From: Pseudomonadota bacterium
GTDB taxonomy: Bacteria; Pseudomonadota; Gammaproteobacteria; Steroidobacterales; Steroidobacteraceae
Direction: 5' to 3'
DNA length: 64,000 nt
NCBI GenBank assembly: GCA_018241525.1
Contig: JAFEDR010000001.1
Coordinates: forward strand, 372,001 to 436,000
Both the position numbers and the translations under genes were made by a program. Under the pieces are notes generated by a model. That model was not told the DNA's origin, did no database searches, and saw nothing but the letters and a program-made list of their open reading frames with translations. Below are positions 7,600 to 32,231 of the stretch, in pieces (position 1 is the first letter of the stretch; each line of letters starts with the position of its first letter).

Positions 7600-8580
7600 A
7601 TGCGCGCACTGCTTTCAGGGTTGCTTCTCGCACTGTCGCCATTTGCCGTCACCCCGGCGCTCGCGGACTGGCTGCATCGCGAAGAGTCGATCATGGGCAC
7701 ACGGATCTACGTCGAGCTGTGGCACGACGACCGCGTCCGCGGCGAGGCGGCGATCGATGCAGTGATGGAGAACATGCACCGGATCGACGAGCTGATGAGC
7801 CACTACCGGCCGGACAGCCAGATCTCGCAGATCAACATGCACGCCGCCGTCGAGCCGGTGGTCGTTGATACCGAGCTCTACGAGCTGATCCGCACGTCGA
7901 TCCACTTCTCCGAGATCACCGAGGGCGCGTTCGACATCACCTACGCCAGCGTCGGCTATCTGTACGACTACCCGCGTCACATCCATCCGACGGATGCGCA
8001 GATCCAGGCGGCCCTACCCGGGGTCAACTACCGCAATCTGGTGCTCGACCCTGACCGCCACTCGGTGCGCTTCGCGCACGAGGGCATGCGCATCGACCTC
8101 GGCGGGATCGGCAAGGGCTACGCCTGCGACCAGGGGGTCGAGATCCTGAAGCGATTCGGCGTCGCCAACGCGATGGTGATGGCCGGCGGCGACACGCGCC
8201 TGCTCGGCGATCGGCGCGGTCGCCCGTGGATGGTCGGGATCCGTCACCCCGACAACAAGAACCGCATCGTGCTCAGCATGCCGCTCGCCGACGTCGGCAT
8301 CTCGACCTCGGGGGACTACGAGCGGTACTTCGACGAGGGCGGCGTTCGTTACCACCACATCATCGACCCGAAGACGGGGCGCAGCCCGACCGGCGTGCGC
8401 AGCGTGACGATCATCGGTCCGACGGCGACCGATACGGAGGGCTGGTCGAAGGGCGTGTTCATCAAAGGGGCGGAGGAGGGCATCCGCCTGATCGAGCGCT
8501 ACCCGCAGATGGACGCCGTGGTCGTCGACAAGGACGGCAAGGTCTGGTACTCGAAGGGACTGACGCCGCCGTCGCCCTAG
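7600..8580 (+). CDS. ApbE-family FAD:protein FMN transferase, variant active site
   Basis: A 326-residue exported ApbE homologue; canonical members move FMN from FAD to a Thr/Ser of a periplasmic protein. Residues 1-22 are a signal peptide. Family motifs run in order: EESIMGTRIYVEL, GAFDITYASVGYLYDYP, IDLGGIGKGYACDQ, GGDTRLLGDRRGRPWMVGI, STSGDYERYF and YHHIIDPKTG. The C-terminal metal motif normally read DA(L/M)(S/A)T is EGWSK here (in TDTEGWSKGVFIKG), so the expected magnesium-binding Asp and Thr are Glu and Lys. Either the metal is held differently or the protein has lost transferase activity. It converges on the DUF3570-DUF4266-TlpA set, with which I believe this subfamily commonly co-occurs. 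Confidence 0.85.
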   Translation: MRALLSGLLLALSPFAVTPALADWLHREESIMGTRIYVELWHDDRVRGEAAIDAVMENMHRIDELMSHYRPDSQISQINMHAAVEPVVVDTELYELIRTSIHFSEITEGAFDITYASVGYLYDYPRHIHPTDAQIQAALPGVNYRNLVLDPDRHSVRFAHEGMRIDLGGIGKGYACDQGVEILKRFGVANAMVMAGGDTRLLGDRRGRPWMVGIRHPDNKNRIVLSMPLADVGISTSGDYERYFDEGGVRYHHIIDPKTGRSPTGVRSVTIIGPTATDTEGWSKGVFIKGAEEGIRLIERYPQMDAVVVDKDGKVWYSKGLTPPSP

Positions 8581-8596
8581 GCGGCGTGCGGCGCGG

Positions 8597-9775
8597 CTAG
8601 AACCAGATCGTCAGCAGGCCCTGAACGACGTTCGCGTTGTAGTGGTAGAGCGGCTCGGTGCCAGCCGGCAACTGGCGCTGGCTCGCATCGCGGAAGTCCT
8701 TGAACTTGTACATGATGTAGTCGTAGTGCAGCGAGCCCGAGAAGCGCTTCAGGAACCAGCGCTTGGACTTCAGGAAGTCGTAGGACAGTGCCGCGCCGAC
8801 CGCGTTGTTGTCCTGGGCCGCCAGCTCCTTGTCGCGCGCCATGTAGTTCTGCTGGTTCGCGAACTGGAACAGATCCGAGTAGAACGAGGCCGAGTTCTGC
8901 CGGTAATAGCGGTAGGTGATGTCGGCGATCAGGCGCTCGTTCAGGAACGGCTGCGTGTAGTCGACCTCCGCGGTGTGTGCGTGAATGTCCCAGGTGTCGA
9001 AGAAATAGCGATACTTGCCCGTCACCGACGCGTGCCAGGGCAGGAAGTACTTCAGGCGTACCGCGACCGCGTTGCTGGTGCGGGTGCCCGGGTAGGTCTC
9101 CGCGCCGGTCAGGTAGATCGTCGAGCCCGGTCCGGCGAGGTAGCGGATCGCGCGATACGGGTTCTGCAGGTAGCCCTGCTCGGTGATCGCCTCATAGTCG
9201 AAGCCCGACAGCAGGTTGCGCGTCAGGATCTGCGAGATGCCGAGCGACCAGGTCTTGCGGTCGACGCGCCGGCGGAAATTCGGATCCTTCTGGTGCGCGG
9301 CGTTGATGACCCGCGTGACGATGTCCCAGCCGCGGCTGACCCCGAACGTCACCGTGGTCAGGTCGCCGAACATGCTCTGCGAGATCCCGAAGCTCGCGGT
9401 GCTCGAGTCGTAGTCGTTCTCGATGCTGCTCTGGACCCCGGCGCTGTAGGTGGTCTTGCCGTACAGGAAATCGACGCCGAGCTGCTTCTGCTTGCGTACC
9501 TCGTGCAGCGGGCTCGCGCCGAGCACGACCATGTCGATCGAAGCCCCGGTCACCTGGTCGACCGCATAGCCGGCGCTCACCGAAACCTTGTCCGAGAAGT
9601 TCTTGCGGACCAGTACCGCCGGGCCCTGCACCTTGAGCCCGCCACCGTCATAGGTGCGCCAGCTGGCATCGGCGCGCTCCTCGGGCAGCACGTCGGCCGT
9701 GGCGCGCATGACGACCAGCAGCGCGAACGCGAGAGCGGCGACTCGGGCGACCGTCAATCGGGAGGTCGGGATCAT
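8597..9775 (-). CDS. DUF3570 outer-membrane beta-barrel protein
   Basis: A 392-residue exported protein. After a signal peptide (about residues 1-28) comes LPEERADASWRTYDGGGLKV, the typical DUF3570 opening, then alternating hydrophobic strands and aromatic ends consistent with an outer-membrane barrel, finishing in a terminal phenylalanine (LLTIWF), the usual barrel-assembly signal. DSSTASFGISQSMFGDLTTV and TFGVSRGWD also fit the family. The function of DUF3570 is not established. The gene is last in a minus-strand run after DUF4266, TlpA and two other barrel proteins. The start at 9773-9775 is the ATG just before the signal peptide; the ribosome binding site is weak. Confidence 0.85.
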   Translation of the reverse strand: MIPTSRLTVARVAALAFALLVVMRATADVLPEERADASWRTYDGGGLKVQGPAVLVRKNFSDKVSVSAGYAVDQVTGASIDMVVLGASPLHEVRKQKQLGVDFLYGKTTYSAGVQSSIENDYDSSTASFGISQSMFGDLTTVTFGVSRGWDIVTRVINAAHQKDPNFRRRVDRKTWSLGISQILTRNLLSGFDYEAITEQGYLQNPYRAIRYLAGPGSTIYLTGAETYPGTRTSNAVAVRLKYFLPWHASVTGKYRYFFDTWDIHAHTAEVDYTQPFLNERLIADITYRYYRQNSASFYSDLFQFANQQNYMARDKELAAQDNNAVGAALSYDFLKSKRWFLKRFSGSLHYDYIMYKFKDFRDASQRQLPAGTEPLYHYNANVVQGLLTIWF

Positions 9776-9806
9776 GCTGATGCGCTTCCGCGGCCGACAG
9801 CGAGGG

Positions 9807-10034
9807 TCAATTGCAGCCGCAGCCGCCGCCGGCTTCGCCGGTGCCGCCGCGGGCGCCTTCGCGATTCTCGCGAACGTGCGTGATGTAGCCGGACATGATC
9901 GGGTCACGGTCCCAGGCCATGACGCGGTCGGCCAGACGTTCGCGCTCGTAGGGCTTGACCCACGGCTGCACGCCGGCGCAGCCGGCTGCGTTGACGGCAA
10001 GCGAGAGCAACAGGGCGATGCGCAGCGCACGCAT
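9807..10034 (-). CDS. Small DUF4266 lipoprotein with Cys-rich C-terminal tail
   Basis: A 75-residue lipoprotein. The signal peptide ends at lipobox AAGC (Cys19). The mature part, about 56 residues, begins AGVQPWVKPYERERLADRVM and ends in GGTGEAGGGCGCN, with two cysteines in a CGC motif three residues from the end. This matches my memory of DUF4266, a family of short lipoproteins of unknown function. The tail could bind metal, form a disulfide or be a modification site; with a TlpA thioredoxin two bases upstream, redox handling of the CGC is a reasonable guess. Its ATG follows the TlpA stop region by two bases, so the two are almost certainly co-translated. Confidence 0.85.
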   Translation of the reverse strand: MRALRIALLLSLAVNAAGCAGVQPWVKPYERERLADRVMAWDRDPIMSGYITHVRENREGARGGTGEAGGGCGCN

Positions 10035-10036
10035 GG

Positions 10037-10543
10037 CTATTTCTCCATCAGCAGGGCGCGAACCTGGTTCAGGTACTCGTTCTCGTCACCGGGGACGTAG
10101 CTGCGGTGCACCCAGCGCAGCACGCCCTTGCGGTCGACCAGCACGGTGGTCGGCATGCCGGACACGCGGTAGGCCTTGCTCACGGTACTGTCCTTGTCGA
10201 ACAGGATCGGGAAGGTGACCGGCGTCTTGGCGATGAAGCCCTCGGCATCCTTGGCATCCGGCTCGACGTTGACGCCGACCAGCGTGAAGCCGGCCGCCTT
10301 GTACTTCTTGTAGATCTGGTCGAGCAGCGGGAATTCCTTGCGGCACGGCTCGCACCAGGAGGCCCAGAAATTGACCATCACGACCTGACCGCGCAGCTTG
10401 TCGAGCCCGAGCGGTGCATTGCCACCACGCAGCGGCAGTGAGAAGGCCGGTGCCGGCTGGCCGATCGGGTCGGCGGCGAGCACCACGGCAGGTGACGCGA
10501 GCCCGGCAGCGAGCGCGACGGCGAGGTACATCGGTCGGAACAT
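10037..10543 (-). CDS. TlpA-like periplasmic thioredoxin-fold protein (CEPC)
   Basis: A 168-residue exported thiol-disulfide protein. A signal peptide (about 1-25) is followed by the TlpA/ResA pattern: PIGQPAPAFSLPLRGG, MVNFWASWCEPCRKEFPLL with active site CEPC, and the cis-proline loop GMPTTVLVDRKG. It probably reduces or isomerises disulfides in neighbouring exported proteins. The start chosen (10541-10543) has GGAG nine bases upstream; an alternative ATG at 10556-10558 would add five residues. The neighbour downstream is DUF4266, whose CGC tail is an obvious candidate client. A second, different TlpA protein lies at 22.4 kb. Confidence 0.9.
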   Translation of the reverse strand: MFRPMYLAVALAAGLASPAVVLAADPIGQPAPAFSLPLRGGNAPLGLDKLRGQVVMVNFWASWCEPCRKEFPLLDQIYKKYKAAGFTLVGVNVEPDAKDAEGFIAKTPVTFPILFDKDSTVSKAYRVSGMPTTVLVDRKGVLRWVHRSYVPGDENEYLNQVRALLMEK

Positions 10544-10569
10544 GATGCTGTACTCCATACTGAGCGGTC

Positions 10570-11259
10570 TCAGAAGAACACGGTCACCCCAAGACCGGTC
10601 TCCAGGTTGTGAGTCGTCTTGTTCGAGCCGAGCAGGTCGATGTCGAAGATGCTGTCGCGCACGTCGAAGTGCGCCGCCAGCCAGTCGTTCAGCAGCATGC
10701 GGTAGCCGGCCCCGATCGCGACGGTGAAGCGATTGTCGCCGGCGAAGTGCGTGGCGCCCACGCCGCCCGTCACATACAGCGCGGAATTGAAGGCCCGGCG
10801 ACGTCCGGCGAACACCTCGCCCGGCAGCAGGTTGTAGCCGAAGTCGAGGCTGTAGTACGTGAGCTTGCGCTGGCTGTCGGTCAGCAGCTGGGCGCCGCCG
10901 GAGAGCCGTTCGTAGCTGGTGCGGCCGACCGTCGTGTGGCCGATCATGGCCTGGGAGAAGAAGTCCTCGCTGATGTGGTACACGAGCCGTGCGCCGAGCA
11001 CCGGGTTCACGCCGAAGTCCTCGGCGCTGTACGTGCCGATGTAGGGTCCGATCTCGAAGTTCGAACTCTTGATCTTCGGCGTCTTGACGGTCCGCCGCGT
11101 GACCTGCGGCTCGACCACGGCCGGCGCCGACCCGTCCGCCGCCGTGGCTTCGACCGGCACCTCCTCGGCGCGCGGCTTCTTGTGGAACGGCCACAGCGAG
11201 CAGCCGCCGAGCGCGAGCGCGGCAGCCATCAGAAGAAGAACGCGAAGCCTACTTTCCAT
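10570..11259 (-). CDS. Outer-membrane beta-barrel lipoprotein-like protein (Glt/OMP_myx type)
   Basis: A 229-residue protein with a signal and lipobox ending in GGCS (Cys20), a short charged linker, then a compact 8-10 strand barrel pattern from about residue 65 (FEIGPYIGTYSAEDFGVNPV, GARLVYHISEDFFSQAMIG) to a C-terminal double phenylalanine (LGVTVFF). This resembles the outer-membrane barrel family associated with myxobacterial motility and spore-coat clusters; I judge that by pattern only. A lipobox in front of a barrel is unusual, so the cysteine may be coincidental. Its start overlaps the end of the next upstream gene by 31 bases, so the two are translationally coupled. Confidence 0.8.
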   Translation of the reverse strand: MESRLRVLLLMAAALALGGCSLWPFHKKPRAEEVPVEATAADGSAPAVVEPQVTRRTVKTPKIKSSNFEIGPYIGTYSAEDFGVNPVLGARLVYHISEDFFSQAMIGHTTVGRTSYERLSGGAQLLTDSQRKLTYYSLDFGYNLLPGEVFAGRRRAFNSALYVTGGVGATHFAGDNRFTVAIGAGYRMLLNDWLAAHFDVRDSIFDIDLLGSNKTTHNLETGLGVTVFF

Positions 11260-12002
11260 TCGTTCCGGTCCTCGTTGGAATCGCGCCGCGTGAAGAGCAC
11301 GTAGCTGCGATAGTCGCCGCGGAATAAGAAGCGATGCGAGACGTACCACTTCACGCCAGCGCCGTAATACGCGATCTGCTCGGTCCGCTGCGGCGGCGTG
11401 ATGATGGTGGCCTTCGGCTGGATGCGCACGGCGCCGGTGCCGAGCTCGAGGAACGGCGCGACCCGCCAGTCCGGGCGCGGTGCGTGCGTCAGCCCGAGCA
11501 GCGCGATCTCGCCATTGGCGGCATGGCCGAGGGTCTGCGCGACCTCGAACTGCGCCGCGAGGTTGGCGTTCAGCGAGTAGGCGACGTACAGGCTGTTGAC
11601 GTTGCCGCCGCCGAAGTTGCCGCTCTGCACGCCGGACTCCCACGGGTAGAGGTCGAAGTCCCGGTGCGACAGATCCTCGAGCGGCAGCTTCTCGCCACTC
11701 GCCAGCAGCGTTTCCTGCATCGAGTCGCGGAACGCCCAGCCCTCGCGGTCGTATTCGTCGCGTACCTTGAACCAGTCGGTGCGCCGGAACAGGATTTCGA
11801 CGTGCTCGCCGCGCGGCACGACGCGGAACACCGGGTAGCCGCGACCGGGACCCGTGTGCAGCTCGAGGTAGGGATCGGCAACCGCGACGTCGACGTAGTG
11901 GCCGGCCTCACGATCGAACCGCCGCGTACTCTCCGCCGCTTGAGCGAGTCCCGCTGCCGTCGCCAGAATAAGTAAGCTTGCGAGGTTCAGGACTTTGCGC
12001 AT
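11229..12002 (-). CDS. SH3-domain plus outer-membrane beta-barrel protein
   Basis: A 257-residue exported protein. Signal peptide 1-22 is followed by a bacterial SH3-like domain, about 35-95 (YLELHTGPGRGYPVFRVV, VEILFRRTDWFKVRDEYDR, GWAFRDSM), a module that usually binds peptidoglycan or peptides. From about residue 120 the sequence becomes an outer-membrane barrel (SLYVAYSLNANLAAQFEVAQ, APFLELGTGAVRI, IAYYGAGVKWYVSHRF), ending in phenylalanines (VGFAFFF). It could tie the outer membrane to the cell wall. It lies four bases after the hydrazine-synthase-like gene and overlaps the following barrel gene by 31 bases, giving a contiguous minus-strand operon down to 8597. Confidence 0.82.
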   Translation of the reverse strand: MRKVLNLASLLILATAAGLAQAAESTRRFDREAGHYVDVAVADPYLELHTGPGRGYPVFRVVPRGEHVEILFRRTDWFKVRDEYDREGWAFRDSMQETLLASGEKLPLEDLSHRDFDLYPWESGVQSGNFGGGNVNSLYVAYSLNANLAAQFEVAQTLGHAANGEIALLGLTHAPRPDWRVAPFLELGTGAVRIQPKATIITPPQRTEQIAYYGAGVKWYVSHRFLFRGDYRSYVLFTRRDSNEDRNEWKVGFAFFF

Positions 12003-12006: not shown

Positions 12007-14832
12007 TCAATTGGCCGGTGGGATCGCGAACGGATCGTTGTAGTACTGGGCGCCGATGTCGAGCCACTCGGAGATCAGCTTCAGCTCGGACCCGGTCAGC
12101 CAGCCGGCATGCGTACCGCCGGTTGTGAACTCGCTGAAGAAGGCCGCTGAAGCATTCGCTCCCGCGCCGCTCATCGGTGGACTGGTCGGAACCAGTGTCG
12201 GCAATCCGGTCACGGGGTCCGGCGGTCCGGGGACGGGCAACATAGTAACAGGGTCGAGCTTGGTATGCGGGAAGAGCAGGTCGCAGAAAGACGTGTATTC
12301 CTGCTGTACGCAAGGGTTCGTCGCGGCGGGGCTCGTCGTGAGATCGAGCTGGCTGTTGCCGAGCGGCACGCGCTTAACGCCGTTCGCGTCGACCGGGCTG
12401 TGGCAGTCGGTGCACATCGTCGCCATCTGCGTCGTACCCGGATTGACCGCCGTGATCGACGTGCGCGGGGTCGTCCAGATCGGCGCGATGTGGATCGGGT
12501 AATGGATCGTGATCCGGCAGTTGCCCTGCCAGTTCGTCTCGCAATCCGCGCGCACCGGCGCAGGCGTGCTCAACGCCGCGTAGGTCCAGGAGAACGCAGG
12601 GTCCGGGGTGCCGACGCCGGTCGGCGTCCAGACGTCTGCGAAGACGATGTCGACCGCCGGCTGCGCCGAGCAGGCGGCATCGACGCAGGTCACCTGCATC
12701 GCAGCACGGTATTCCGCCATCGTCTCGCCGGCATTGGGCTGGCGCGGCGGCAGGATGGTGTTGCCGGTCCGGTCAGTGACCTGCAGCTGGGTGTTCGGGA
12801 AGGCCTGTCCGGTGGTGGTGGCGCCGGTGTTCACCAGCGCGAACAGCCCGGTCCGGCCGTGGGAATTCGACGGCGGCTGCTGGGCCTGCACGTGGCAGCC
12901 GTTGCAGACCACGGTCTCGCCGGTGCGGATCTGCATCCACGCGCGGTGGCGCGGGTAGGTGCCGTCGAGCCGGCGGCCATTGGCATCGAGCACGCTGATC
13001 TGGAACGGGATGTTGGCGGGCACCTTGACGCGCACCGAGCCATCCGGCTCGACCTGGGCATAGCCGATGATCTCGCGCATGAACCCGCCGGCGGCGCCGA
13101 AGGCGTAGTTCGGGAAGGCGTTGTTCGAGAGCACCTCGCGGTCCGGCAGGCTGACCGCCTTTTCGATGCGGATGAACCGTGGCCGGACCGGGCTGGGCTG
13201 GCGCTTGGTTGGATCGCTGACCGTGGCGATGCCGCCCGGAGCGCGGTCGATCCCGTCGAAATCGTAGACGCTCTTTATATCTAGGATGCCGACGCCCTCG
13301 GCGGCGAGGCTGAACGTGTACGAACCGGTCGCGCTCGGCTGGGCGTCGGGGATCGGGGTCGGAGTCGGCAGTCGCGGCTGCAGCGCGACGACGTTCGTGT
13401 ACATCATGCCTTCGACCGGCGGCACGATCGGCATCTGGGTGCTGGCCTTCGGGTCGTAAATCCAGACACCGTAGATGGTGGGCGCCGGAACGGCAGTCGC
13501 GTTCGCGAGATTGTCGGAGGTGCACGGCACGATCTGCGTCTGGATCACGAGCCGGCACTGGGTCCACGAGACGAGCAGCCGATTGGTGCCGTCCCACAAC
13601 GGGAACACGCTCGAGAACCGGCCGCCGGGCGAGGCGGGCGCGAACGGCGCCGGCGTCCCGGCCGGGGCGTTCGGGTCGGCGGGCGGCGCCTCGGTGGTGA
13701 TCACATCGTTGATCACCAGCCGGCTCTGGCCGGTGGTCCCGGCCGCCGCAGTAGAGCTCAGGACCTTCTGGACGTTCTCGACGAAGTTCGCCGCGTCGAT
13801 CAGGGCGATGTCCCCGCCGAACTCCGTGCCCTGGAACGGCCGTAGCAGCGCGACGACCTTGCCGTCCGGCCGGGTCCGTGCCTGGGTGAACTGCACCAGC
13901 GACCCGCCCTGGGCGGTGGTGGGGTTCCCGGTGTCGTGACTGTTGCGCCCGTAGAGCAACTGCATGTCGCCGCCGTCCGGGTCGATCGCATAGAGATGCA
14001 TGCCGGCGCCGGAATTGATGTCCCAGCGCGTGAACACCACCCGGCCGTCATTCAGCACCGACGGATCCAGATCATGGCCGGTGTTGAACGAGATCTGACG
14101 GATGCCGCTGCCATCCGCGTTCATGACGTGTACGACGAAGGCGGGCAGGTTGCGGTCGCCCTCGATGCCGGCGGCAAACTGCGCTTTGCCCTCGTCGATC
14201 AGCACCGCCTTGGCATCATGCTGGCGCGTGGACGAGAACACGATCCGGCCGTCGGGCAGGTAGTGCGGCCCGACGTCGTGGCCGAGCGCGGCCGCGATCG
14301 GGTCGGAGATGACCTGGCGCAGGGTGGCGCTCGTAAGGTCGTACTCGAAGATCGTCCAGCGTGGCTGCTGCGATTGCTTGGCGTTCTTGATCGGCCGGCA
14401 ACGGAACGAAAAGATCAGCTTCTTGCCGTCGAAGGACGTGTCGAGGTCCCGCACGTCATGGTCGGGACCGGAGGCCTGGTTCGGGTCGGAGGCGAGCGGG
14501 CAGGCCAGCGCGGCCGTGAGATTCTTCTCGTTGGCCGTCGGGCTGGCGCTCTCGCGCAGCACCACGTCGGCCGGACCGTTCCAGACACGCTGCACGCGCA
14601 GGTCGTCCTCCAGCGTGATCGCATTGGGATCGTTGGCTTTCGGCAACGTGCGCTTGATGTACGCGATCGCGAAGTCCGGCGAGACCGGATCATTCGACGA
14701 GCTGCCGCTGCCGAGGCTGATGCCGCTGTTCGGGCCCTCGCTGCTGGAGCACGCGGACGCGAGTACCGCGACCAACGCAACGACTAGCCATCGCTGCATG
14801 CTGCCCAGCAGGTCAGGAACGTGCTTGTCCAT
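12007..14832 (-). CDS. Hydrazine-synthase-alpha-like exported c-type cytochrome lipoprotein
   Basis: A 941-residue exported protein. A signal peptide and lipobox (LASACSSS) are followed by a beta-propeller region with PD40/TolB-like repeats (LDTSFDGKKLIFSFRC, PHYLPDGRIVFSSTRQHD, HLYAIDPDGGDMQLLYGRN), then a large beta-rich region and two heme c motifs, CNGCH at 643-647 and CTDCH at 807-811. The layout matches proteins annotated as HzsA-related (middle domain of anammox hydrazine synthase alpha), but no other anammox subunits are near, so hydrazine synthesis is not implied. The start at 14830-14832 is chosen for the strong GAGGAAGG ribosome binding site; an inner ATG at 14797-14799 is possible. 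It is divergent from the next cytochrome gene. Confidence 0.8.
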   Translation of the reverse strand: MDKHVPDLLGSMQRWLVVALVAVLASACSSSEGPNSGISLGSGSSSNDPVSPDFAIAYIKRTLPKANDPNAITLEDDLRVQRVWNGPADVVLRESASPTANEKNLTAALACPLASDPNQASGPDHDVRDLDTSFDGKKLIFSFRCRPIKNAKQSQQPRWTIFEYDLTSATLRQVISDPIAAALGHDVGPHYLPDGRIVFSSTRQHDAKAVLIDEGKAQFAAGIEGDRNLPAFVVHVMNADGSGIRQISFNTGHDLDPSVLNDGRVVFTRWDINSGAGMHLYAIDPDGGDMQLLYGRNSHDTGNPTTAQGGSLVQFTQARTRPDGKVVALLRPFQGTEFGGDIALIDAANFVENVQKVLSSTAAAGTTGQSRLVINDVITTEAPPADPNAPAGTPAPFAPASPGGRFSSVFPLWDGTNRLLVSWTQCRLVIQTQIVPCTSDNLANATAVPAPTIYGVWIYDPKASTQMPIVPPVEGMMYTNVVALQPRLPTPTPIPDAQPSATGSYTFSLAAEGVGILDIKSVYDFDGIDRAPGGIATVSDPTKRQPSPVRPRFIRIEKAVSLPDREVLSNNAFPNYAFGAAGGFMREIIGYAQVEPDGSVRVKVPANIPFQISVLDANGRRLDGTYPRHRAWMQIRTGETVVCNGCHVQAQQPPSNSHGRTGLFALVNTGATTTGQAFPNTQLQVTDRTGNTILPPRQPNAGETMAEYRAAMQVTCVDAACSAQPAVDIVFADVWTPTGVGTPDPAFSWTYAALSTPAPVRADCETNWQGNCRITIHYPIHIAPIWTTPRTSITAVNPGTTQMATMCTDCHSPVDANGVKRVPLGNSQLDLTTSPAATNPCVQQEYTSFCDLLFPHTKLDPVTMLPVPGPPDPVTGLPTLVPTSPPMSGAGANASAAFFSEFTTGGTHAGWLTGSELKLISEWLDIGAQYYNDPFAIPPAN

Positions 14833-23674: not shown

Positions 23675-25635
23675 GTCGAGTGGGCATCGCGTCGTGCGCT
23701 GCCCGCTGGCGGCGGGCGCTCGCGCTCGCCGGCCTGCTGGCATTCGCGCCGGCGGCTATCATGGCCGCCCCGGCGGCCAAGCGACCGGCCACCCCCGGTG
23801 CGCTGCCGGCCGTCAAGGTCCGCGATCTGTATTACGGCGACGTACTCTTCTATTTCTACCAGGATGACTACTTCGCGGCGCTGACGCGGCTGACCGCGGC
23901 GCAGCAGCAGGGACGGCTAGCGCACCACGAGGCCGACGCCGAGCTGCTGCTGGGTGGGCTCTACCTCTCGCTTGGCCAGCATCGGGAGGCCGGGCAGATC
24001 TTCTCGGAGGTATTGAACCGACCTGGCGTTCCGCAGCCAGTGCGCGACCGGGCGCGGTTCTTCCTCGGCAAGGTCTGGTACCAGCGAGGTTACTTCGACA
24101 AGGCGGCCGACACGCTCGAGGCAGCCGGCAAAGCCGGCCTCACGCCCTCGATGGACGCCGAGCGACGCATGCTGCTCGCGCAGGCGCTCCTGTACCAGGG
24201 CAAATACCCTGCGGCCATCGCGGTACTCGACAACTGGAAGGGCCCGGTCACGTGGCAGGCCTACGCCAAGTTCAACCTCGGCGTCGCCTTCGTGCGCAAC
24301 GGCCAGCTGGAGGCCGGTGCCCGCCTGCTCGATGAGATCGGCCAGATCGACAAGAGCAATCGCGAGCTGGACGCGCTGCGCGACAAGGCCAACCTGGCGC
24401 TCGGCTACGCGATGCTCCAGGCGAACCGCCCGACCGACGCACGGCCGGTGCTCGAACGCGTCCGACTGGACGGACCGCTGTCGACGAAAGCGCTGCTCGG
24501 CGTCGGCTGGGCAGCGAGCGATACGCAACAGTACCGCGAGGCGCTGGTGCCCTGGCTGGAGCTGCACGGCCGCAACATGCTCGACGCGGCGGTCCAGGAG
24601 AGCTACCTCGCCGTCCCGTATGCCTACGGGAAGCTGAACGCGAATCGCCAGGCGTCGGAGTACTACGAAGCCGCGATTCGCGAGTTCTCGACGGAGACCA
24701 CGCGCATCGACGAATCGATCGCTGCGATCCGGCGTGGCACGATGCTGGACACGATCGTCAAGAACGAGTCGCGCAGCCAGCTCGGGTGGTTCTGGCAGCT
24801 CAGCCGGCTGCCCGACGCGCCGGAGTCGCGCTACCTGTACCACCTGCTGGCGCAAAATGACTTCCAGGAAGGACTGAAGAACTTCCGGGTGCTGCGCTAT
24901 CTCGACCGGAACCTCGACGCCTGGTCGACCAGCGTCGAGGCCTTCGACGACATGCTGGCGACACGTCGCGAACGCTATGAGCGCCGCCTGCCGGAGGTGC
25001 TCGCGAAGCTGCAGACGGTCGATCTCGAAGACCTGCAGCGCCAGCGCACCGAAATCGAGTCGAAGGTCATGAGCGCCGAGAACAATGGCGACGTGGCGGC
25101 GCTCGGCACGCCGCACGAGCGCGAAATGTGGGCGCAGGTCGAGCAGATGGAAAGCGTGCTGGCAACGGCGGGTAGCGACCCTGACCTCGAGGATACCCGC
25201 GACAAGGTCAGGCTGGTGCGCGGGGTTCTTTACTGGGAGATGGCCGACGGCTTCAAGGCGCGCGCCTGGAATGTGCGCAAGGGCGTTCGCGAGGTGTCGC
25301 AGGCGCTGCGTGACACCGAGAAGCGCTGGTCGCTGGTGCAAGAGGCCAAGCAGGCCGTTCCGGATCGCAACGGCGAATTTGGCGAGCGGATTGCGGCGCT
25401 CCGCCCGCGGATTGCGGCCGCGCGCGAGCGGCTCGCGTCGCTGCAGAAGGCGCAGGCTGACTATCTTGCTGACATTGCCGTTCGCGAGCTCGAGTCGCAA
25501 AAGGAGCGCATCTCGACCTACATGCTGCAGGCGCGGTACTCACTCGCGACGATCTACGATCGGGCATCGTCGGAGAGCGAGGCCAAGCGCGCTCCGCCGA
25601 CGCCCACCACGCCGCCACCGGATGGCGCGCGATGA
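23671..25635 (+). CDS. Exported TPR-repeat protein, Glt-like scaffold
   Basis: A protein of 654 residues with a signal peptide (about 8-33) and many TPR-like helical pairs from about residue 50 to 320 (YFAALTRLTAAQQQGRLAHH, LLLGGLYLSLGQHREAGQIF, FFLGKVWYQRGYFDKAADTL). The C-terminal third is highly charged helix with likely coiled coil (RPRIAAARERLASLQKAQAD) and a Pro-rich tail. TPR proteins of this size act as periplasmic scaffolds in Agl-Glt/Nfs-type machines. Possible GTG starts lie at 23665, 23671 and 23680; 23671 is chosen for its GTGA overlap with the previous stop and AAGGAG five bases upstream. It overlaps the next gene by ATGA. Confidence 0.82.
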   Translation: MSRVGIASCAARWRRALALAGLLAFAPAAIMAAPAAKRPATPGALPAVKVRDLYYGDVLFYFYQDDYFAALTRLTAAQQQGRLAHHEADAELLLGGLYLSLGQHREAGQIFSEVLNRPGVPQPVRDRARFFLGKVWYQRGYFDKAADTLEAAGKAGLTPSMDAERRMLLAQALLYQGKYPAAIAVLDNWKGPVTWQAYAKFNLGVAFVRNGQLEAGARLLDEIGQIDKSNRELDALRDKANLALGYAMLQANRPTDARPVLERVRLDGPLSTKALLGVGWAASDTQQYREALVPWLELHGRNMLDAAVQESYLAVPYAYGKLNANRQASEYYEAAIREFSTETTRIDESIAAIRRGTMLDTIVKNESRSQLGWFWQLSRLPDAPESRYLYHLLAQNDFQEGLKNFRVLRYLDRNLDAWSTSVEAFDDMLATRRERYERRLPEVLAKLQTVDLEDLQRQRTEIESKVMSAENNGDVAALGTPHEREMWAQVEQMESVLATAGSDPDLEDTRDKVRLVRGVLYWEMADGFKARAWNVRKGVREVSQALRDTEKRWSLVQEAKQAVPDRNGEFGERIAALRPRIAAARERLASLQKAQADYLADIAVRELESQKERISTYMLQARYSLATIYDRASSESEAKRAPPTPTTPPPDGAR

Positions 25636-28600
25636 GGCGCTCGTCCCGGCTCTGGTCGGCGATGCTGCTGGCGGTGCTCGCCGCCGGCGCGGCATCGGCT
25701 GCCACCAAGAAGCAACCGACGATTGCCGACCTCAAGGGCAAGCAGGTCGACGTCAACCCCGATACGTCGGCGGACGCGAGTTCGGAACGCGCCCGGCTGA
25801 ACTACCAGGAGTTCCTGAACCTCGAACGTGGTGATGCGGCACTGCGCGCCGAGGCGATGCGACGCCTGGGCGATCTGAAGCTGGAAGCTGGTGAGCTGAA
25901 TCGGATCGAGAAGGAACTGGCGCAGGGCTCGCCGCTCGATACATCCGATGCGATCGTTCTCTATACCAAGCTGCTCGCGGCCTATCCGAACTACGAGCGC
26001 AATGATGCGGTGCTGTACCAGCTGGCGCGGGCCTACGAGGCCGACCAGCAAGGCGACAAGGCGCTCGCGACGCTCGACAGGCTGGTGAGCCGCTACCCCG
26101 CAGGACGCTACACCGACGAGGCGCAGTTCCGCCGCGGCGAAATTCTGTTCATGGCCAAGCGATGGGCCGACGCGCAGGCGGCGTACGAGCACGTGATCGG
26201 CTTCGGGCCGAAATCCGAGTTCTACGAGCAGAGCCTCTACAAGGACGGCTGGTCCCTGTTCAAGCGAGGCGAGTCGGATGGCGCGCTCGACTCGTTTGCC
26301 AAGCTGCTCGATCGCAAGCTGATCGACGGCCAGGGCCGGGAACGCGACATCGAGGGGTTCACGCGGCCGCAGCGCGAGCTCGTCGAGGATACACTGCGGG
26401 TCTGCGCGATCACGTTTTCGTTCGAGGATGACGCCAAGGGTGTCGACACCTTTCTGGGTCGGCACGGCCCGCGGCCCTACGCCTATCTTCTGTATTCGAC
26501 GCTAGGCGACCTGTACGTCAGCAAGGAGCGCTGGACCGACGCCGCCAACGCGTATCGCGCCTTTGCGAAGCGCGATCCCGATCATGATCGAGCTCCGCTG
26601 CTGCAGATGCAGGCGATCGACGCCTACAAGCGCGGCGGCTTTGCATCGCTGGTGCTCGATGGCAAGCGCGAGTATGTCGAACGCTACCGGCTCGGCTCGT
26701 CGTTCTGGGCGCATCGCAAGCCGGCGGACGCGCCGTTGGTCGTCAGCGAGCTCAAGACCAACGTCAAGGATCTCGCGGGCTACTATCACTCGCAGGCGCA
26801 GAAATCGAAGCTGCCCGCGGATTACCAGGAAGCGGCGCATTGGTATCGGGAGTACCTGACGTCGTTCCCGGACGACAAGGACGCGGCGTCGACCAACTAC
26901 CTGCTCGCGGACACGCTGTTCGAGAGTCACCAGTTCCACGACGCGGCCGAGGAATACGAGCACGCGGCGTACAACTATCCGCCCAACGACAAGTCTGCAA
27001 CAGCAGGCTACGCAGCACTCGTCGCCTACGACAAGCACGAGGCGGGCCTGCAGGGCGAGGCCCGGGCGAACTGGCACCGCCAGGGGCTCGAGAGCGGCCT
27101 GCGCTTCGCGACGACTTTCCAGGGGCACCCGGAGAGCGCGCCGGTCCTCGTGCGTACGGCCCGCGAGTACTACGACCTCAAGGAGTACGGCAAGGCGATC
27201 GACGTCGCCGACATCGTGCTCGCACGCCAGCCGCCGGTCGACGTCGAGAAGCAGAAGACCGTCTGGACGGTGATCGCCAACGGCCAGTTCGAACTTGGCC
27301 AATTCGACAAGGCTGAGGGCGCCTATCTGCAGGTGCAGTCGCTGCTGCTCGCCAACGACCCGCAGCGCCCCGCGATCGAGGAGCGCATCGCTGCCGCGGT
27401 CTACAAGCAGGGCGAGGCGCGCAAGGCGGCCGGCGACGATGCCGGCGCGGTCGGAGACTTCCTGCGCGTGGCGCAGCTGGCGCCGCACGCGAAGATCCGC
27501 TCCACGGCCGACTACGACGCGGCCGCGCTGCTGATCGGGTTGAAGGACTGGCCGAAGGCCATCGACGTACTCGAAGGCTTCCGCAAGAACTTTCCGACCA
27601 GCGAACTGCAACCCGAAGTTACGCGCAAGCTGGCGGTTGCCTACGTCGAGGCCGGGAAGCCCGGCTCGGCCGCGCTCGAGTTCGAGCGCATTGCCTCCGC
27701 CACCGGCAACAGCCCGGACGTGCAGCGCGAGGCGCTGTCGCAGGCGGCGGTGCTCTACGAGAAGTCCGGTGATACCGCCAAGACCGTCGCCACCCTGGAG
27801 ACGTACGTCAAGCGCTACCCCCAGCCGTTCGATGCGGCTCTCGAGGCACGCCAGAAGCTTGCCGACCTGGCGCAGCAGCGTGGCGACGCCGCCCGGCGCA
27901 GCGCGTTGCTCGAGGACATCGTGCGCAGCGACCAGGGGGCGGGATCGAGTCGAACGGACCGCAGTCGTTATCTGGCGGCGAAGGCCTCGCTCGAGCTCGC
28001 CATGCCGACGCGCGAGGCATTCCGCGCGGTGCAGCTCGTGCTGCCGCTCAAGAAGTCGCTGGAGGCGAAGCGCCAGGCGATGCAGCGCGCGCTCAAGGCG
28101 TTCGAGGGCGCCGACGCGTATTCGATCGCCGAAGTGTCGACCGCCGCCACGTTCGAGATGGCGGACCTGTACCGGCAGTTGAGCGTCGACCTGCTGAAGT
28201 CGGAGCGGCCGAAGAGCCTCAAGGGCGAGGAACTCGAGCAGTATGATCTGCTGCTCGAGGAGCAAGCCTTCCCGTTCGAGGAGAAGGCGATCGATATCCA
28301 TCTCGTCAACGCCAATCGGGCGGCCCAGGGCGTCTACGACGACTCGGTGCGCGCGAGCTATGCGGCGCTCGCCAAACTGAAGCCCGCGCGGTTCGCGAAG
28401 GTCGAGGAGAACGAGGAACTGGTGATCGATGCGGCGGCCGGCGCGCCGCCACCCGAGCCCCCGGCGCCGCCGGCGCCCGCCAAGGGCAAGGCGCCACCGC
28501 CCGCCGCCGCACCGCCGCCGGCGGTACCGCTGCCCGTGGCGGTCCGCTTCCAGGAAGCCGTCGCGGCCGCCGAGCGCGACCGCGACCGTGCCGACTCCGA

Positions 28601-29027
28601 GTTCGCGGCGCTCAGCGGTCAGGCGCCGACGCTGGCGGGCCCTCCGCTCAATCACGGGATTCTGCTGTGCCGCGCGCAGCGCTGGCAGGAAGCGGTCGTC
28701 GCGCTCGGCGAAGCGCTGGCGCGCTATCCGGCGAGCGCGCCGGCCGCGGCCCAGCTTGGCGTTGCGTACCGCCAGCTCGGCAAGTTCGCGGACGCCGAGC
28801 AGTCGTATCGTCGCGCGGTCGAGGCCGATTCCAACGACGCTCGCGCGCATCGGAACTTCGGCATCCTGCTGGACCTCTACCTGCAGAAGCCCGCCGAAGC
28901 ACTTGCGCAGTTCGAGGCCTCTCAGGCGCTCGCCGGCGGCGAGGACAAGCAGATGTCGGCCTGGATCGCGGAACTCAAGCAGCGACTCGGTGCGGGCCAG
29001 AAGAGTGCCCGAGCGGAGGGTCCATGA
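25632..29027 (+). CDS. Large exported TPR-repeat protein, Glt-like scaffold
   Basis: At 1131 residues this is the largest member of the operon. Signal peptide 1-24 is followed by TPR-like repeats across most of the length (YQLARAYEADQQGDKALATL, RRGEILFMAKRWADAQAAYE, LADTLFESHQFHDAAEEYEH), a Pro/Ala-rich hinge near 935-965, and a final set of canonical TPRs (LNHGILLCRAQRWQEAVVAL, LGVAYRQLGKFADAEQSYRR, NFGILLDLYLQKPAEALAQF). This pattern matches large periplasmic TPR proteins of trans-envelope motors such as the Glt/Nfs type; it could span the periplasm and hold the motor to outer-membrane parts. It is coupled by ATGA overlaps to the genes on both sides. Confidence 0.83.
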   Translation: MRRSSRLWSAMLLAVLAAGAASAATKKQPTIADLKGKQVDVNPDTSADASSERARLNYQEFLNLERGDAALRAEAMRRLGDLKLEAGELNRIEKELAQGSPLDTSDAIVLYTKLLAAYPNYERNDAVLYQLARAYEADQQGDKALATLDRLVSRYPAGRYTDEAQFRRGEILFMAKRWADAQAAYEHVIGFGPKSEFYEQSLYKDGWSLFKRGESDGALDSFAKLLDRKLIDGQGRERDIEGFTRPQRELVEDTLRVCAITFSFEDDAKGVDTFLGRHGPRPYAYLLYSTLGDLYVSKERWTDAANAYRAFAKRDPDHDRAPLLQMQAIDAYKRGGFASLVLDGKREYVERYRLGSSFWAHRKPADAPLVVSELKTNVKDLAGYYHSQAQKSKLPADYQEAAHWYREYLTSFPDDKDAASTNYLLADTLFESHQFHDAAEEYEHAAYNYPPNDKSATAGYAALVAYDKHEAGLQGEARANWHRQGLESGLRFATTFQGHPESAPVLVRTAREYYDLKEYGKAIDVADIVLARQPPVDVEKQKTVWTVIANGQFELGQFDKAEGAYLQVQSLLLANDPQRPAIEERIAAAVYKQGEARKAAGDDAGAVGDFLRVAQLAPHAKIRSTADYDAAALLIGLKDWPKAIDVLEGFRKNFPTSELQPEVTRKLAVAYVEAGKPGSAALEFERIASATGNSPDVQREALSQAAVLYEKSGDTAKTVATLETYVKRYPQPFDAALEARQKLADLAQQRGDAARRSALLEDIVRSDQGAGSSRTDRSRYLAAKASLELAMPTREAFRAVQLVLPLKKSLEAKRQAMQRALKAFEGADAYSIAEVSTAATFEMADLYRQLSVDLLKSERPKSLKGEELEQYDLLLEEQAFPFEEKAIDIHLVNANRAAQGVYDDSVRASYAALAKLKPARFAKVEENEELVIDAAAGAPPPEPPAPPAPAKGKAPPPAAAPPPAVPLPVAVRFQEAVAAAERDRDRADSEFAALSGQAPTLAGPPLNHGILLCRAQRWQEAVVALGEALARYPASAPAAAQLGVAYRQLGKFADAEQSYRRAVEADSNDARAHRNFGILLDLYLQKPAEALAQFEASQALAGGEDKQMSAWIAELKQRLGAGQKSARAEGP

Positions 29028-29497
29028 AGTATCTCGTCCTGATGCTGCTCACCATCGCGTTGGTCGGCCCGGTCGCGGGCGCTGCGGAGCCGGCCGCCAG
29101 CGAAACCGCGAAGGCGCGCGCCGCCTCGCCGGATGTGCTGCAGGCGGAGCCTGCCGCGGGTCAAAAGCCGGCCAAGCCCGCCGTCAAGGCGGAGGCGCCC
29201 GCCGAGAGGCCGGTCGACAAGCCCGGCAAGGCCATGGACCGCCTCGAGCTCGAGACGTCGCAGATCACGGGTAATCGCGAATTGCCGAAGGTCATGGTGA
29301 TCGTGCCCTGGAAGCGCTCGGACATTGGCGACCTGGTCGGTCGCCCGGTGAACAGCCTGGTCGACGAGGCCCTGCAGCCCGTGGACCGCGAGGTGTTCCG
29401 GCGCGAGATCGATTACTTCGACGCGCTGACGCCCGACCGGGCGCGAAGCGAGACGCGCGTCACATCTGGCGGGGCTCAGCCACGCGCTGAGAAGTAA
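29024..29497 (+). CDS. Small exported protein of unknown function in TPR-motor operon
   Basis: A 157-residue protein: signal peptide 1-20, a low-complexity Ala/Lys/Pro region to about residue 70, and a short conserved-looking C-terminal part (RLELETSQITGNRELPKVMV, IVPWKRSDIGDLVGRPVNSL) with a hydrophobic core followed by DEALQPVDREVFRREIDYF. No family is recognised. The ATG overlaps the stop of the large TPR gene (ATGA), so production is coupled. Its position just before ExbB suggests a periplasmic adaptor between the scaffold and the motor, as inference only. Confidence 0.72.
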   Translation: MKYLVLMLLTIALVGPVAGAAEPAASETAKARAASPDVLQAEPAAGQKPAKPAVKAEAPAERPVDKPGKAMDRLELETSQITGNRELPKVMVIVPWKRSDIGDLVGRPVNSLVDEALQPVDREVFRREIDYFDALTPDRARSETRVTSGGAQPRAEK

Positions 29498-29578: not shown

Positions 29579-30274
29579 ATGCATGAGTTCGACGTGATCG
29601 TGGACTTCTTCAGGAAGGGCGGCTTCTTCCTGTACCCGATCGCCCTGATCTGGGCGATCGGCCTCGTCATCGCCATCGAGCGTTTCGCCTACCTGATGAA
29701 AGTCGGCGGCGGCAACAAGCGCCTGTGGGACCAGCTGCAGCCGCTGTTCGAGGCTGGCAACTTCAAGCAGGCGACCAACGCGGTCGCCGATTCCGATACC
29801 GCGCTCGCGCAGGTCATGCGCTACGGCATGAGCCGGATCTCGACCGCGCGGCGTCGTGAGGACATCGAGAAGGCGATGGAGGAGAGCCTGGTTGAGGTGA
29901 TTCCGCATCTCGAGCGGCGCACCCACTACCTCGCCGCCCTGGCGAATATCGGCATGCTGATGGGCCTGTTCGGCACCGTGCTCGGCCTGATTCGTGCCTT
30001 CGCCGCCGTCGCCCAGGCCAACCCGGCAGAGAAGGCCAGCCTGCTGTCGGCGAGCATTTCGGTCGCGATGAACAACACCGCACTCGGCCTGCTCGTCGCG
30101 ATCACGCTGCTGCTCTCGCATCTCTATCTCGAGACCAAGACGACCAACATCGTCGACAGCCTCGAGGTGGCCAGCGTCAAGTTCCTGAACGCGCTGACCG
30201 AGCGCCAGCAGCGGGCTGCTGAAGCCCCTGCTGCCGGTGCGGCTGCGCCGCGCGCCGGCGGGGCGAGGGCATGA
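29579..30274 (+). CDS. exbB: MotA/TolQ/ExbB proton-channel family protein
   Basis: A 231-residue inner-membrane protein with three predicted membrane helices: about 14-38 (GGFFLYPIALIWAIGLVIAI), about 120-142 (LAALANIGMLMGLFGTVLGL) and about 160-182. The GLFGTVLGLIRAF segment is the ExbB/TolQ signature. With the two ExbD proteins it should form a proton-driven motor, like AglR-AglQ-AglS in myxobacteria. The gene has a GGAG ribosome binding site and follows the small exported gene by 81 bases; its stop overlaps the start of the first ExbD gene (ATGA). The symbol denotes the family, not orthology to E. coli ExbB. Confidence 0.9.
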   Translation: MHEFDVIVDFFRKGGFFLYPIALIWAIGLVIAIERFAYLMKVGGGNKRLWDQLQPLFEAGNFKQATNAVADSDTALAQVMRYGMSRISTARRREDIEKAMEESLVEVIPHLERRTHYLAALANIGMLMGLFGTVLGLIRAFAAVAQANPAEKASLLSASISVAMNNTALGLLVAITLLLSHLYLETKTTNIVDSLEVASVKFLNALTERQQRAAEAPAAGAAAPRAGGARA

Positions 30275-30780
30275 GCGGATCGTCGATTGCCCGTCGCCAG
30301 GCGCGCAACCATGCGCGCTACAAGGGTCGGAACGACATCAACATCGTTCCGATGCTCGACATCTTTACGATCCTGCTGTTCTTCCTGATCTTCACGGCCG
30401 TCTTCTCGAAGACGCACATCGTCGAGATGAATCTGCCGGCGCAGAGCTCCGAACCCCTGCCGCTGCCCGAGGGGTTGGTGCTCGAGGTGGTCGTGCGCAA
30501 GGACAGCCTGGTCGTCCAGGACAAGAACTCGGGACCGCTGCAGTCGTTGCCGAACACCGCCGAGGGCTACGATTTCGACGGCCTGAACTCCTACCTGACG
30601 CGGGTGAAGGCGCGCTTTCCCGACCTGAAGGCGGCGACGGTGCTGCTCGAGCAGAACATCCCGTACGAGACCATCATCGCGACGATGGACGCGGTGAAGT
30701 CGTACGAGGGCACCCTCGATGGCCAGCCGGCGCGCGGTGAGTTGTTCCCGCAGATCTCGCTCGGAGACGCGCCCACATGA
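30271..30780 (+). CDS. exbD: ExbD/TolR family protein 1
   Basis: A 169-residue protein with one N-terminal membrane helix (residues about 24-44) preceded by a basic cytoplasmic tail. The helix begins DINIVPMLDIFTILLFFLIF, with the proton-path aspartate at Asp30, as in ExbD/TolR/AglS. The periplasmic domain (VVVRKDSLVVQDKNSG, ATVLLEQNIPYETIIATMDA) has the ExbD fold. It overlaps ExbB at the start and the second ExbD at the end by ATGA. Two ExbD copies in series are also found in Agl-Glt clusters, where the pair gives AglQ and AglS. Confidence 0.9.
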   Translation: MSGSSIARRQARNHARYKGRNDINIVPMLDIFTILLFFLIFTAVFSKTHIVEMNLPAQSSEPLPLPEGLVLEVVVRKDSLVVQDKNSGPLQSLPNTAEGYDFDGLNSYLTRVKARFPDLKAATVLLEQNIPYETIIATMDAVKSYEGTLDGQPARGELFPQISLGDAPT

Positions 30781-31292
30781 TCTCCTCGCGGCTGAAGCGC
30801 AATCGTCGTCCCGGCGGTCAGCACGGCAGCCACGGCATGCCGGCGCTGGTGCCGATGATCGACATGCTCGTGATCCTCGTCGTGTACATGCTGGTGCACA
30901 CGGCGGATTACGAGATCCTGCCGAATACCAAGAACATCTCCATTCCGCAGTCGATCTCCGAGGCCAAGCCCCACGAGTCGACGGTGCTGATGGTGACCCG
31001 TGACACGATCTTCGTGAATGGCTCGCCGACGGCGTCGGTCGCCGACATCGAGGCCGACTCCAATGCGGCCCGCGATGCGCTGCTCGCCAGCCTCAAGAGC
31101 GAGACGCAGAAGCGCACGCTGCTGCAGCCGAACGATCCGGCCGCCCGCGAGATCACGGTGATGGCCGACAAGGGCCTGCCGTACAACCTGCTGAAGAAGA
31201 TCATGATGGCAGCGACCGCCGCGGACATCGGCAAGATGTCGCTGGCGGTGATCGAAAAAGAGCGGGCCTACCACGGCCCGAACCCTGGCTGA
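30777..31292 (+). CDS. exbD: ExbD/TolR family protein 2
   Basis: A 171-residue ExbD homologue. A basic, Gly/His-rich cytoplasmic tail (about 1-20) leads to one membrane helix with MPALVPMIDMLVILVVYMLV and the conserved aspartate at Asp29. The periplasmic part has the ExbD fold (REITVMADKGLPYNLLKKIM). It is longer and less hydrophobic after the helix than copy 1 and differs in sequence, so the two are likely non-identical partners in one stator and not a recent duplicate. It starts in an ATGA overlap with copy 1 and precedes the TonB/AgmX-like gene by 21 bases. Confidence 0.88.
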   Translation: MISSRLKRNRRPGGQHGSHGMPALVPMIDMLVILVVYMLVHTADYEILPNTKNISIPQSISEAKPHESTVLMVTRDTIFVNGSPTASVADIEADSNAARDALLASLKSETQKRTLLQPNDPAAREITVMADKGLPYNLLKKIMMAATAADIGKMSLAVIEKERAYHGPNPG

Positions 31293-31313
31293 GTTTCGCC
31301 GAGCGAGCCCAAG

Positions 31314-32231
31314 ATGACCGCGCTTGCCACCAACTACCGGCTTTACGAGCTTCCCTGGACGCCGAATGACGCCGAGGAGCGCCATTTCAAGCGGCTGCTC
31401 ACCATCGGCCTGCTGATTTGGCTGCTGGTCGTAATCGGCTCGCAGTTGCTACCGGTCGCAGAGCGGCCGGCGCCTCCGCCGCTGCCGGAAGACGTCGTCA
31501 AGCTGGTGCTGCAGCCGACACCGCCGCCGCCGAAGCCGATCGAGGAGAAGAAGCCGGAGCCGAAGCCGATCGAGCAGAAACCGGTCATCCCGCCGCCGGT
31601 CGTGGACAAGACCGAGCTCGCGCGCAAGAAGGCGCAGAAGGCCCTGAACCAGGTCAAGGATGAGCTCGCCGATCTGCGTGCGGCGCTCAAGACCGAGGAT
31701 CTGGCGAGCGCGAAGCCGCTGAAGGACAAGGTCGACGGGCCGGCGCGGGCCGAGCGCTCGCTGATTACGTCGAATCTGACGGGCGGCAGCGGCGGCATCA
31801 ATACCGCGGCGCTGAGTTCCGGATTCGGCAGCGGTCCGGGCTCGCTGCACGGTCACTCGACCATGCAGGGCGTGCAGTCGTTTGCCGACGGCATTCGCAA
31901 GGACCACGCCGAGGCGAAGCGCAGTGGCTCGAGCGGCAAGGCCTCGCGCAGCCGCGAAGAGATCGAGATGGTCTTCGATCGCAACAAGGCCGCGATCTAC
32001 GCGCTGTACAACCGCGCGCTGCGCGACAACCCGCAGCTGCAGGGCAAGGTGGTGGTGCAGCTGACGATTGCCCCGACGGGCGAGGTCACGGACTGCAAGA
32101 TCCTCTCGAGCGAGCTCAAGGACGAGGAGCTCGAGCGCAAGCTGGTCGCGCGCATCAAGATGTTCCGCTTCGACGACAAGGACGTCGAGCTGATCACCAC
32201 CACGAAGCCGATCGACTTCTTCCCCGCCTGA
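31314..32231 (+). CDS. TonB-like energy transducer with AgmX/PglI C-terminal domain
   Basis: A 305-residue protein anchored in the inner membrane by one helix (about 27-46, LLTIGLLIWLLVVIGSQLLP) with a short cytoplasmic tail. A Pro/Lys-rich arm (about 51-97; EEKKPEPKPIEQKPVIPPPV) would cross the periplasm, followed by a Gly/Ser linker and a C-terminal TonB-like alpha/beta domain (about 215-305: MVFDRNKAAIYALYNRALRD, GKVVVQLTIAPTGEVTDCKI). This is the AgmX/PglI C-terminal type seen in myxobacterial gliding proteins. It should couple ExbB/ExbD motion to a periplasmic or outer-membrane partner, likely the TPR or barrel proteins here. Confidence 0.88.
   Translation: MTALATNYRLYELPWTPNDAEERHFKRLLTIGLLIWLLVVIGSQLLPVAERPAPPPLPEDVVKLVLQPTPPPPKPIEEKKPEPKPIEQKPVIPPPVVDKTELARKKAQKALNQVKDELADLRAALKTEDLASAKPLKDKVDGPARAERSLITSNLTGGSGGINTAALSSGFGSGPGSLHGHSTMQGVQSFADGIRKDHAEAKRSGSSGKASRSREEIEMVFDRNKAAIYALYNRALRDNPQLQGKVVVQLTIAPTGEVTDCKILSSELKDEELERKLVARIKMFRFDDKDVELITTTKPIDFFPA

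Follow-up and report, generated by a model that had tools for sequence, protein, structure and literature searches.

Two kinds of described gene cluster come closest to the locus considered here. The Agl-Glt core comprises seven genes, gltC, gltD, gltE and gltG together with aglR, aglQ and aglS, and its gammaproteobacterial version carries an extra gene that is absent from Myxococcales (PMC3169522). In Myxococcus, Agl-Glt and Agl-Nfs transport surface polysaccharide; in Gammaproteobacteria the core has been described as standalone and of unknown function (PMC3169522, 2011; PMC3858216, 2013). The other kind groups ApbE, DUF3570, a thioredoxin and DUF4266, and the function of DUF3570 flavinylation and electron transfer was left uncertain (PMC8238504). 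The terms thioredoxin, cytochrome and redox do not occur in the main text of PMC3169522, and ExbD is absent from that of PMC8238504. Here we describe a locus of a Steroidobacteraceae bacterium (assembly GCA_018241525.1) in which both kinds stand together with a set of heme proteins. The stretch analysed, hereafter the window, covers 64,000 nucleotides (positions 372,001 to 436,000 of JAFEDR010000001.1) and lies on contig C6 of a 4.45 Mb genome (G000).

Judging from gene order and distribution, the locus, with its roughly twenty adjacent genes, is very probably one co-inherited system. This had been proposed by the original prediction, which was made from the window sequence and was to be judged by whether the modules occur independently in relatives; it is supported by co-occurrence at the levels of order and class, by conserved synteny and by apparently fused operons. 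Among 147 genomes of the order searched for five markers, phi coefficients range from 0.64 to 0.89, and DUF4266 lies at most 1.6 kb from an outer-membrane barrel in 74 of the 76 genomes that have both. Across 274 genomes of the class, the TIGR04565 barrel always accompanies x23, a periplasmic protein that marks the motor (42/42), and so does the HzsA-like lipoprotein in 38 of 39 cases, 29 of them on the same contig and within 40 kb. In the window's own family (f1, 24 genomes), the barrel and the GltG-like motor protein have identical distributions (11 genomes), as do the HzsA-like protein and D1501 (8 genomes, nested in the former set), while in genus g6 of this family the sets are either wholly present or wholly absent. 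ApbE is found in all ten family members with DUF4266 and in one of the 14 without it (G010), not counting a short piece in G085. Moreover, evolutionary distances among motor proteins track those among redox proteins beyond what rpoB accounts for (partial r 0.36, p 0.002, 19 genomes), with further values of 0.43 for CytA/LamG/D1501, 0.53 in a 15-genome subset and 0.69 between the two redox sets.

Genes were called on the window and their products scanned against Pfam and NCBIfam; export signals were judged by a simple motif and hydropathy scan and by eye. The three modules predicted to lie side by side between 7.6 and 32.2 kb, including two outer-membrane barrels (10570-11229 and 11229-12002), were borne out, and so was near-universal export, as a hydrophobic leader, lipobox, twin-arginine translocation (Tat) motif or transmembrane helix is present on all products except the methyltransferase at 20641-22005. 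The features are as follows (TPR, tetratricopeptide repeat; E, E-value).

6623-7465, minus strand: exported SYLF-domain protein, membership uncertain (NF049970, E 3e-11, below cut-off; relatives also have it close to the locus)
7600-8580, plus strand: ApbE, FAD:protein FMN transferase (PF02424, E 1.4e-81)
8597-9775, minus strand: DUF3570, putative flavinylated outer-membrane protein (PF12094, E 2.7e-42)
9807-10034, minus strand: DUF4266 small lipoprotein with C-terminal CGCN (PF14086, E 2.2e-21)
10037-10558, minus strand: TlpA1, periplasmic thioredoxin-like protein, CEPC (Redoxin, E 6e-28)
10570-11229, minus strand: OMP1, outer-membrane beta barrel, OMP_myx_plus (TIGR04565, E 5e-46)
11229-12002, minus strand: OMP2, SH3 domain and barrel (SH3_3, E 2e-9; weak TIGR04565, E 8e-6)
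12007-14832, minus strand: HzsA-like lipoprotein with PD40 propeller, HZS_alpha middle domain and two CxxCH (PF18582, E 5.6e-14)
14833-15169, no strand: divergent promoter region between HzsA-like gene and CytA (sequence reading; divergence kept in relatives)
14925-14940, no strand: TGTTAACACGCTCACA, conserved 16 bp Crp/Fnr-like palindrome (pattern scans of HzsA/CytA gaps)
15170-16390, plus strand: CytA, one CxxCH, distant PSCyt3/PSD2 relative (weak orthologue matches)
16404-18935, plus strand: LamG lipoprotein with two CxxCH (Laminin_G_3, E 4e-24)
18958-20571, plus strand: D1501, Tat-exported, predicted alkaline-phosphatase-superfamily fold (RRDFIA leader; AlphaFold model)
20641-22005, plus strand: cytoplasmic zinc-ribbon methyltransferase (CARME/Methyltransf)
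22411-22917, plus strand: TlpA2, CGSC (AhpC-TSA, E 1.4e-16)
23111-23674, plus strand: x23, motor-linked periplasmic hallmark with coiled coil and beta sandwich (orthologue alignment; structure model)
23680-25635, plus strand: TPR1, 651 aa, GltC-like by size and position (TPR families)
25662-29027, plus strand: TPR2, GltD-like with fused GltE-like C-terminal TPR (TPR family matches; comparison with relatives)
29024-29497, plus strand: x29, small conserved exported protein without family match (synteny)
29579-30274, plus strand: ExbB/TolQ/AglR-like proton channel subunit (PF01618, E 5e-26)
30271-30780, plus strand: ExbD1, AglQ/S-like, PMLD (PF02472, E 7e-15)
30777-31292, plus strand: ExbD2, AglQ/S-like, PMID (PF02472, E 4e-14)
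31314-32231, plus strand: GltG/AgmX-type TonB-like protein (NF033768, E 2.3e-19, over cut-off; TIGR01352)

The minus-strand run reads from the HzsA-like gene at 14832 through OMP2, OMP1, TlpA1 and DUF4266 to DUF3570 at 8597 with gaps of at most 31 bp, and the plus-strand run follows the listed order from CytA to the GltG-like gene, which ends at 32231. Both were thought to share the divergent region at 14833-15169. The gap is exactly as predicted, but apbE falls outside this arrangement since it lies on the plus strand, convergent with the minus-strand run; a 405-bp gap (22006-22410) precedes the motor genes, which therefore may have their own promoter. The methyltransferase gene adjoins D1501 in several families (L062-L072, G001, G031, G064, G088, G107, G115), and the SYLF-domain gene recurs a few kb from the locus in many relatives.

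Synteny was read by tblastn in 60 stretches from 32 other genomes and in 80 named loci around x23. The order is conserved in eleven families and takes three forms. In arrangement A, that of the window, the motor lies beside D1501, and a Steroidobacteraceae metagenome-assembled genome (MAG; L086) is among the closest named relatives sharing this order. In arrangement B, the motor follows, in the same direction, the block running from HzsA to DUF3570 (or ApbE), and in arrangement C the locus is split. The two halves of arrangement B are, on their spacing, apparently fused into one operon: DUF3570 and x23 are separated by -1 to +3 bp in four loci (L076, L105, L113, L088), and in G004 the genes for the HzsA-like protein, OMP2, OMP1, TlpA, DUF4266, DUF3570, ApbE, x23 and TPR1 succeed one another with gaps of at most 20 bp. 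Among the split genomes, G001 and G031 have apbE directly with the motor and DUF3570 with the HzsA-like gene. In G065, G022 and G008 some 10-11 kb separate apbE from GltG, which puts apbE at the upstream end of the motor genes, and in G065 DUF3570 is about 590 kb away. That apbE stays with the motor while its presumed substrate is elsewhere is hard to explain if these genes are mere neighbours.

Whether the cytochrome set belongs to the locus or was inserted had been left open by the original prediction. It belongs: the same set, order and divergent arrangement recur in many families, on which ground an insertion origin of the cytochrome/LamG/Tat genes was rejected, and a minority variant keeps motor and barrels without it. 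This minimal variant, seen at six loci (L071, L075, L078, L081, L100, L102; G142 and G010 are two of the genomes), retains motor, barrels and DUF3570 and lacks the HzsA-like protein, CytA, LamG, D1501 and DUF4266. The D-x-x-[ST]-[SG]-A-[ST] site, retained in the other loci, is gone from its DUF3570; in G142 ApbE is missing altogether and the sole DUF4266 trace is below cut-off. From these comparisons, gain or loss appears to affect the flavin and heme parts jointly, as a single functional unit linked to the motor.

The 337 bp gap between the HzsA-like gene and CytA contains TGTTAACACGCTCACA at 14925-14940. Sites of the TGTGA-N6-TCACA type with at least 8 of 10 positions occur in 22/22 such gaps, counting that of the window, whereas shuffled sequences give 3.1; the pattern was chosen on the same set. 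Of 31 gaps in a second set, some of them from close relatives of the window or from genomes already used in the first, 25 score at least 8 bits where 4.1 would be expected. The Crp/Fnr-like label is a reading of this palindrome's pattern, and the regulator is putative. A scan for sigma-70 promoters gave no site, with 1.5 expected by chance, and so carries little information.

The motor genes form one cluster comprising ExbB, two ExbDs and the AgmX/GltG-domain TonB-like protein, according to family scans and to synteny in relatives. The window ExbDs carry the membrane aspartate in PMLD and PMID motifs, and the GltG-like protein has 305 aa with the AgmX/GltG domain at its C-terminus. Compared by size and order, the TPR proteins agree with GltC, GltD and GltE and are candidate homologues; GltC is a 673 aa protein with a weak TPR (PMC3169522). 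The match to the GltE model is weak (E 5e-5, 22.3 bits, cut-off 225). In the window clade (25662-29027) the GltD-like protein carries the GltE-like TPR lipoprotein as a C-terminal fusion, while most other families encode the two separately, as read at the window, L076, L105, L113, L116 and other loci. Among 25 orthologues, x23 has 45 invariant columns, and its structure model (predicted local distance difference test, pLDDT, 82) combines a coiled coil with a beta sandwich. Its Foldseek search returned low TM-scores to unrelated sandwiches and no clear relative, so that no function is assigned to it. Either x23 or x29 is a natural candidate for the extra gene of the gammaproteobacterial core. 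A second GltG-type protein with a longer frame (about 470-520 aa) occurs on another contig in G121, G109, G046, G056, G133 and other genomes and points to a paralogous motor in several families.

ApbE, DUF3570, DUF4266 and a TlpA thioredoxin, all four recognised by Pfam, make up the flavin and thiol module of the window. The putative flavin site of its DUF3570 is D-Q-V-T-G-A-S at residues 73-79, which aligns with the site of standalone DUF3570s; this is the one TGAS of the protein, and a second [S/T]GA[S/T] site, two being typical of the published cluster type, was not found in it. DUF4266 ends in CGC and has a lipobox in 23/23 relatives. A second, divergent ApbE/DUF3570/TlpA/DUF4266 system stands alone in genomes of the same taxonomic order (G048:C1 2.948 Mb, G134:C36 106 kb, G065:C1 3.815 Mb and G125:C34 22 kb). 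Its DUF3570 shares 23-27 % identity with the locus type and has a TGAT/TGAS site, and neither motor nor heme genes are nearby.

The profile of the HzsA-like protein matches HzsA, the alpha subunit of hydrazine synthase (PDB 5c2v_A), with E 3.6e-17. The alignment runs through the propeller region, the middle domain with its CxxCH and the C-terminal heme region, although the match is poor beyond the middle domain; the NF052339 score is 39.5 bits against a cut-off of 800. Hydrazine synthesis was nevertheless rejected as a function. In 5c2v the active-site tyrosine stands four residues past the CxxCH histidine; it is not conserved (Q in the window), which is why hydrazine chemistry is not indicated, and HzsB and HzsC are absent from the locus. 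Planctomycetal-type PSCyt/PSD cytochromes usually have Tat partner proteins. The locus resembles them in that 17 of 20 CytA orthologues match PSD2/PSCyt3 weakly (PSCyt2 is also weakly matched, and the window CytA is below the Pfam cut-off) and in the Tat protein encoded downstream, while the arrangement with LamG and the HzsA-like protein is specific to it. One heme motif in CytA and two in the LamG lipoprotein are found in 21/21 orthologues. D1501 has no Pfam match in the window, no DUF1501 match in 21 orthologues and none to PDB sequences by profile, and no paper on co-occurrence of DUF1501 and DUF1592 was found. Its AlphaFold model (mean pLDDT 73) is predicted to adopt an alkaline-phosphatase-superfamily fold: VIA-align gives Z 11.4 to ENPP6 over 215 residues at 4.0 Å, all matches listed belonging to that superfamily, and Foldseek alone gives E 3e-3. 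In G024, G094 and G103 the D1501 match contains one in-frame stop, which could be decay or an assembly error, and the adjacent genes still match.

How the parts might work together can be outlined as follows. On comparative genomics, ExbB, the two ExbDs and the GltG-like protein form an Agl-Glt-type motor unit that x23, TPR1, TPR2 and x29 regularly accompany, and its partner is the redox set made of ApbE, DUF3570, DUF4266, TlpA and the HzsA-like protein, usually with CytA, LamG and D1501. Proton flow would turn or pull the GltG-like rod, and the force would be passed through a periplasmic TPR/x23 scaffold to OMP1 and OMP2. DUF3570 would be flavinylated by ApbE, electrons would be supplied or drained by TlpA and by the C-terminal CXC of DUF4266, and they could pass between flavin and c-heme at the outer membrane or at the surface. 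An extracellular polymer may be what the LamG and alkaline-phosphatase-fold proteins bind or modify. By analogy with Agl-Glt/Nfs polysaccharide movement in Myxococcus, the motor would move, assemble or display the surface redox complex. Taken as a whole, one machine with this mechanism is probably the best explanation; the mechanism as proposed is put forward tentatively. It is doubtful, albeit conceivable, that an envelope-spanning motor driven by the proton-motive force (PMF) is mechanically coupled to a flavin-heme electron-transfer complex on the surface, letting cells position or work this redox tool by force against a polymer or mineral outside the cell, and that this is the ancestral role of Agl-Glt in Gammaproteobacteria.

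The main rival holds that the motor is an energised export or display apparatus, functionally akin to the type IX secretion motor, which would push the Tat protein and the heme and flavin lipoproteins out to the cell surface and not along it. A PMF motor, a TPR scaffold and two barrels are compatible with export, the lipoproteins and the Tat protein, one of them with a lectin-like domain, would be candidate cargo, and the TPR proteins show weak PorW/SprE matches. These matches, however, are generic to TPR and far below cut-off, neither a type IX barrel nor a C-terminal sorting domain was seen in family scans, and surface transport is what the core family is known for (PMC3858216), which leaves this explanation unlikely. 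That TlpA proteins and the DUF4266 cysteines share an operon with the barrels could also mean that the redox set is a maturation service, whose thiol and flavin chemistry folds the outer-membrane parts of the motor or loads them with cofactors, with no electron-transfer output. This is improbable, as the flavin site, heme lipoproteins and alkaline-phosphatase-fold protein come and go as a set while motor and barrels persist without them. As to unrelated modules gathered in a region rich in envelope genes, motor-only and flavin-only loci (G130, G048, G134) and split arrangements are what such neighbours would produce. Genomics largely contradicts this reading through class-wide co-occurrence, adjacency kept despite rearrangement, fused operons and an apbE shared across split loci, and we consider it very improbable.

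Several observations nonetheless weigh against a single machine. Some relatives have motor and barrels but no heme set (G130 and the six minimal loci, with G010 and G142 among the latter), which means that the motor can basically exist without the redox set, and the flavin module's separate standalone form likewise qualifies the one-system reading. An operator of the HzsA type lies upstream of the motor in 19/55 cases against 6.7 expected, a weak enrichment. The GltG-like protein scores 43.6 bits with the gliding GltG equivalog model (cut-off 650) and is therefore a relative of the core type, distinct from the gliding GltG. Finally, the co-occurrence counts ignore phylogeny, and many of the genomes are fragmented MAGs with broken contigs.

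The union of known pieces had been thought new, and both halves indeed are of known kinds, with no description of their union found in the open-licence literature. The TonB clusters of Teredinibacter (PMC10734418) were considered and set aside, being vibrio-type ttpB/ttpC/ttpD or two-TonB clusters that differ from the locus. Our claim is that the locus is an Agl-Glt core variant with an obligate-looking outer-membrane redox partner, an earlier description outside the open-licence literature being possible. It would give the gammaproteobacterial core its first concrete partners, in a large part of the class, and these allow assays such as flavin fluorescence, heme staining and localisation under carbonyl cyanide m-chlorophenyl hydrazone (CCCP); DUF3570 flavinylation gains a physical envelope context, and the distribution of TIGR04565 barrels suggests that they are part of the core outside Deltaproteobacteria. 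With the clusters of PMC8238504 the locus shares the four members and the C-terminal CXC of DUF4266, and its DUF3570 has a flavinylation-like site, but it lacks DsbD, its TlpA is of the Redoxin type and the site in relatives is mostly Dxx[ST]SAS instead of the published [ST]GA[ST]. With the Agl-Glt core it shares ExbB, two ExbDs and the AgmX/GltG-domain TonB-like protein in one cluster, which also holds the TPR proteins that are candidate counterparts of GltC, GltD and GltE. Its GltG-like protein of 305 aa stays far below the equivalog score, the window clade has the GltE-like part joined to GltD, and whereas the published core is standalone, the one described here comes with outer-membrane barrels and a flavin, heme and thiol set.

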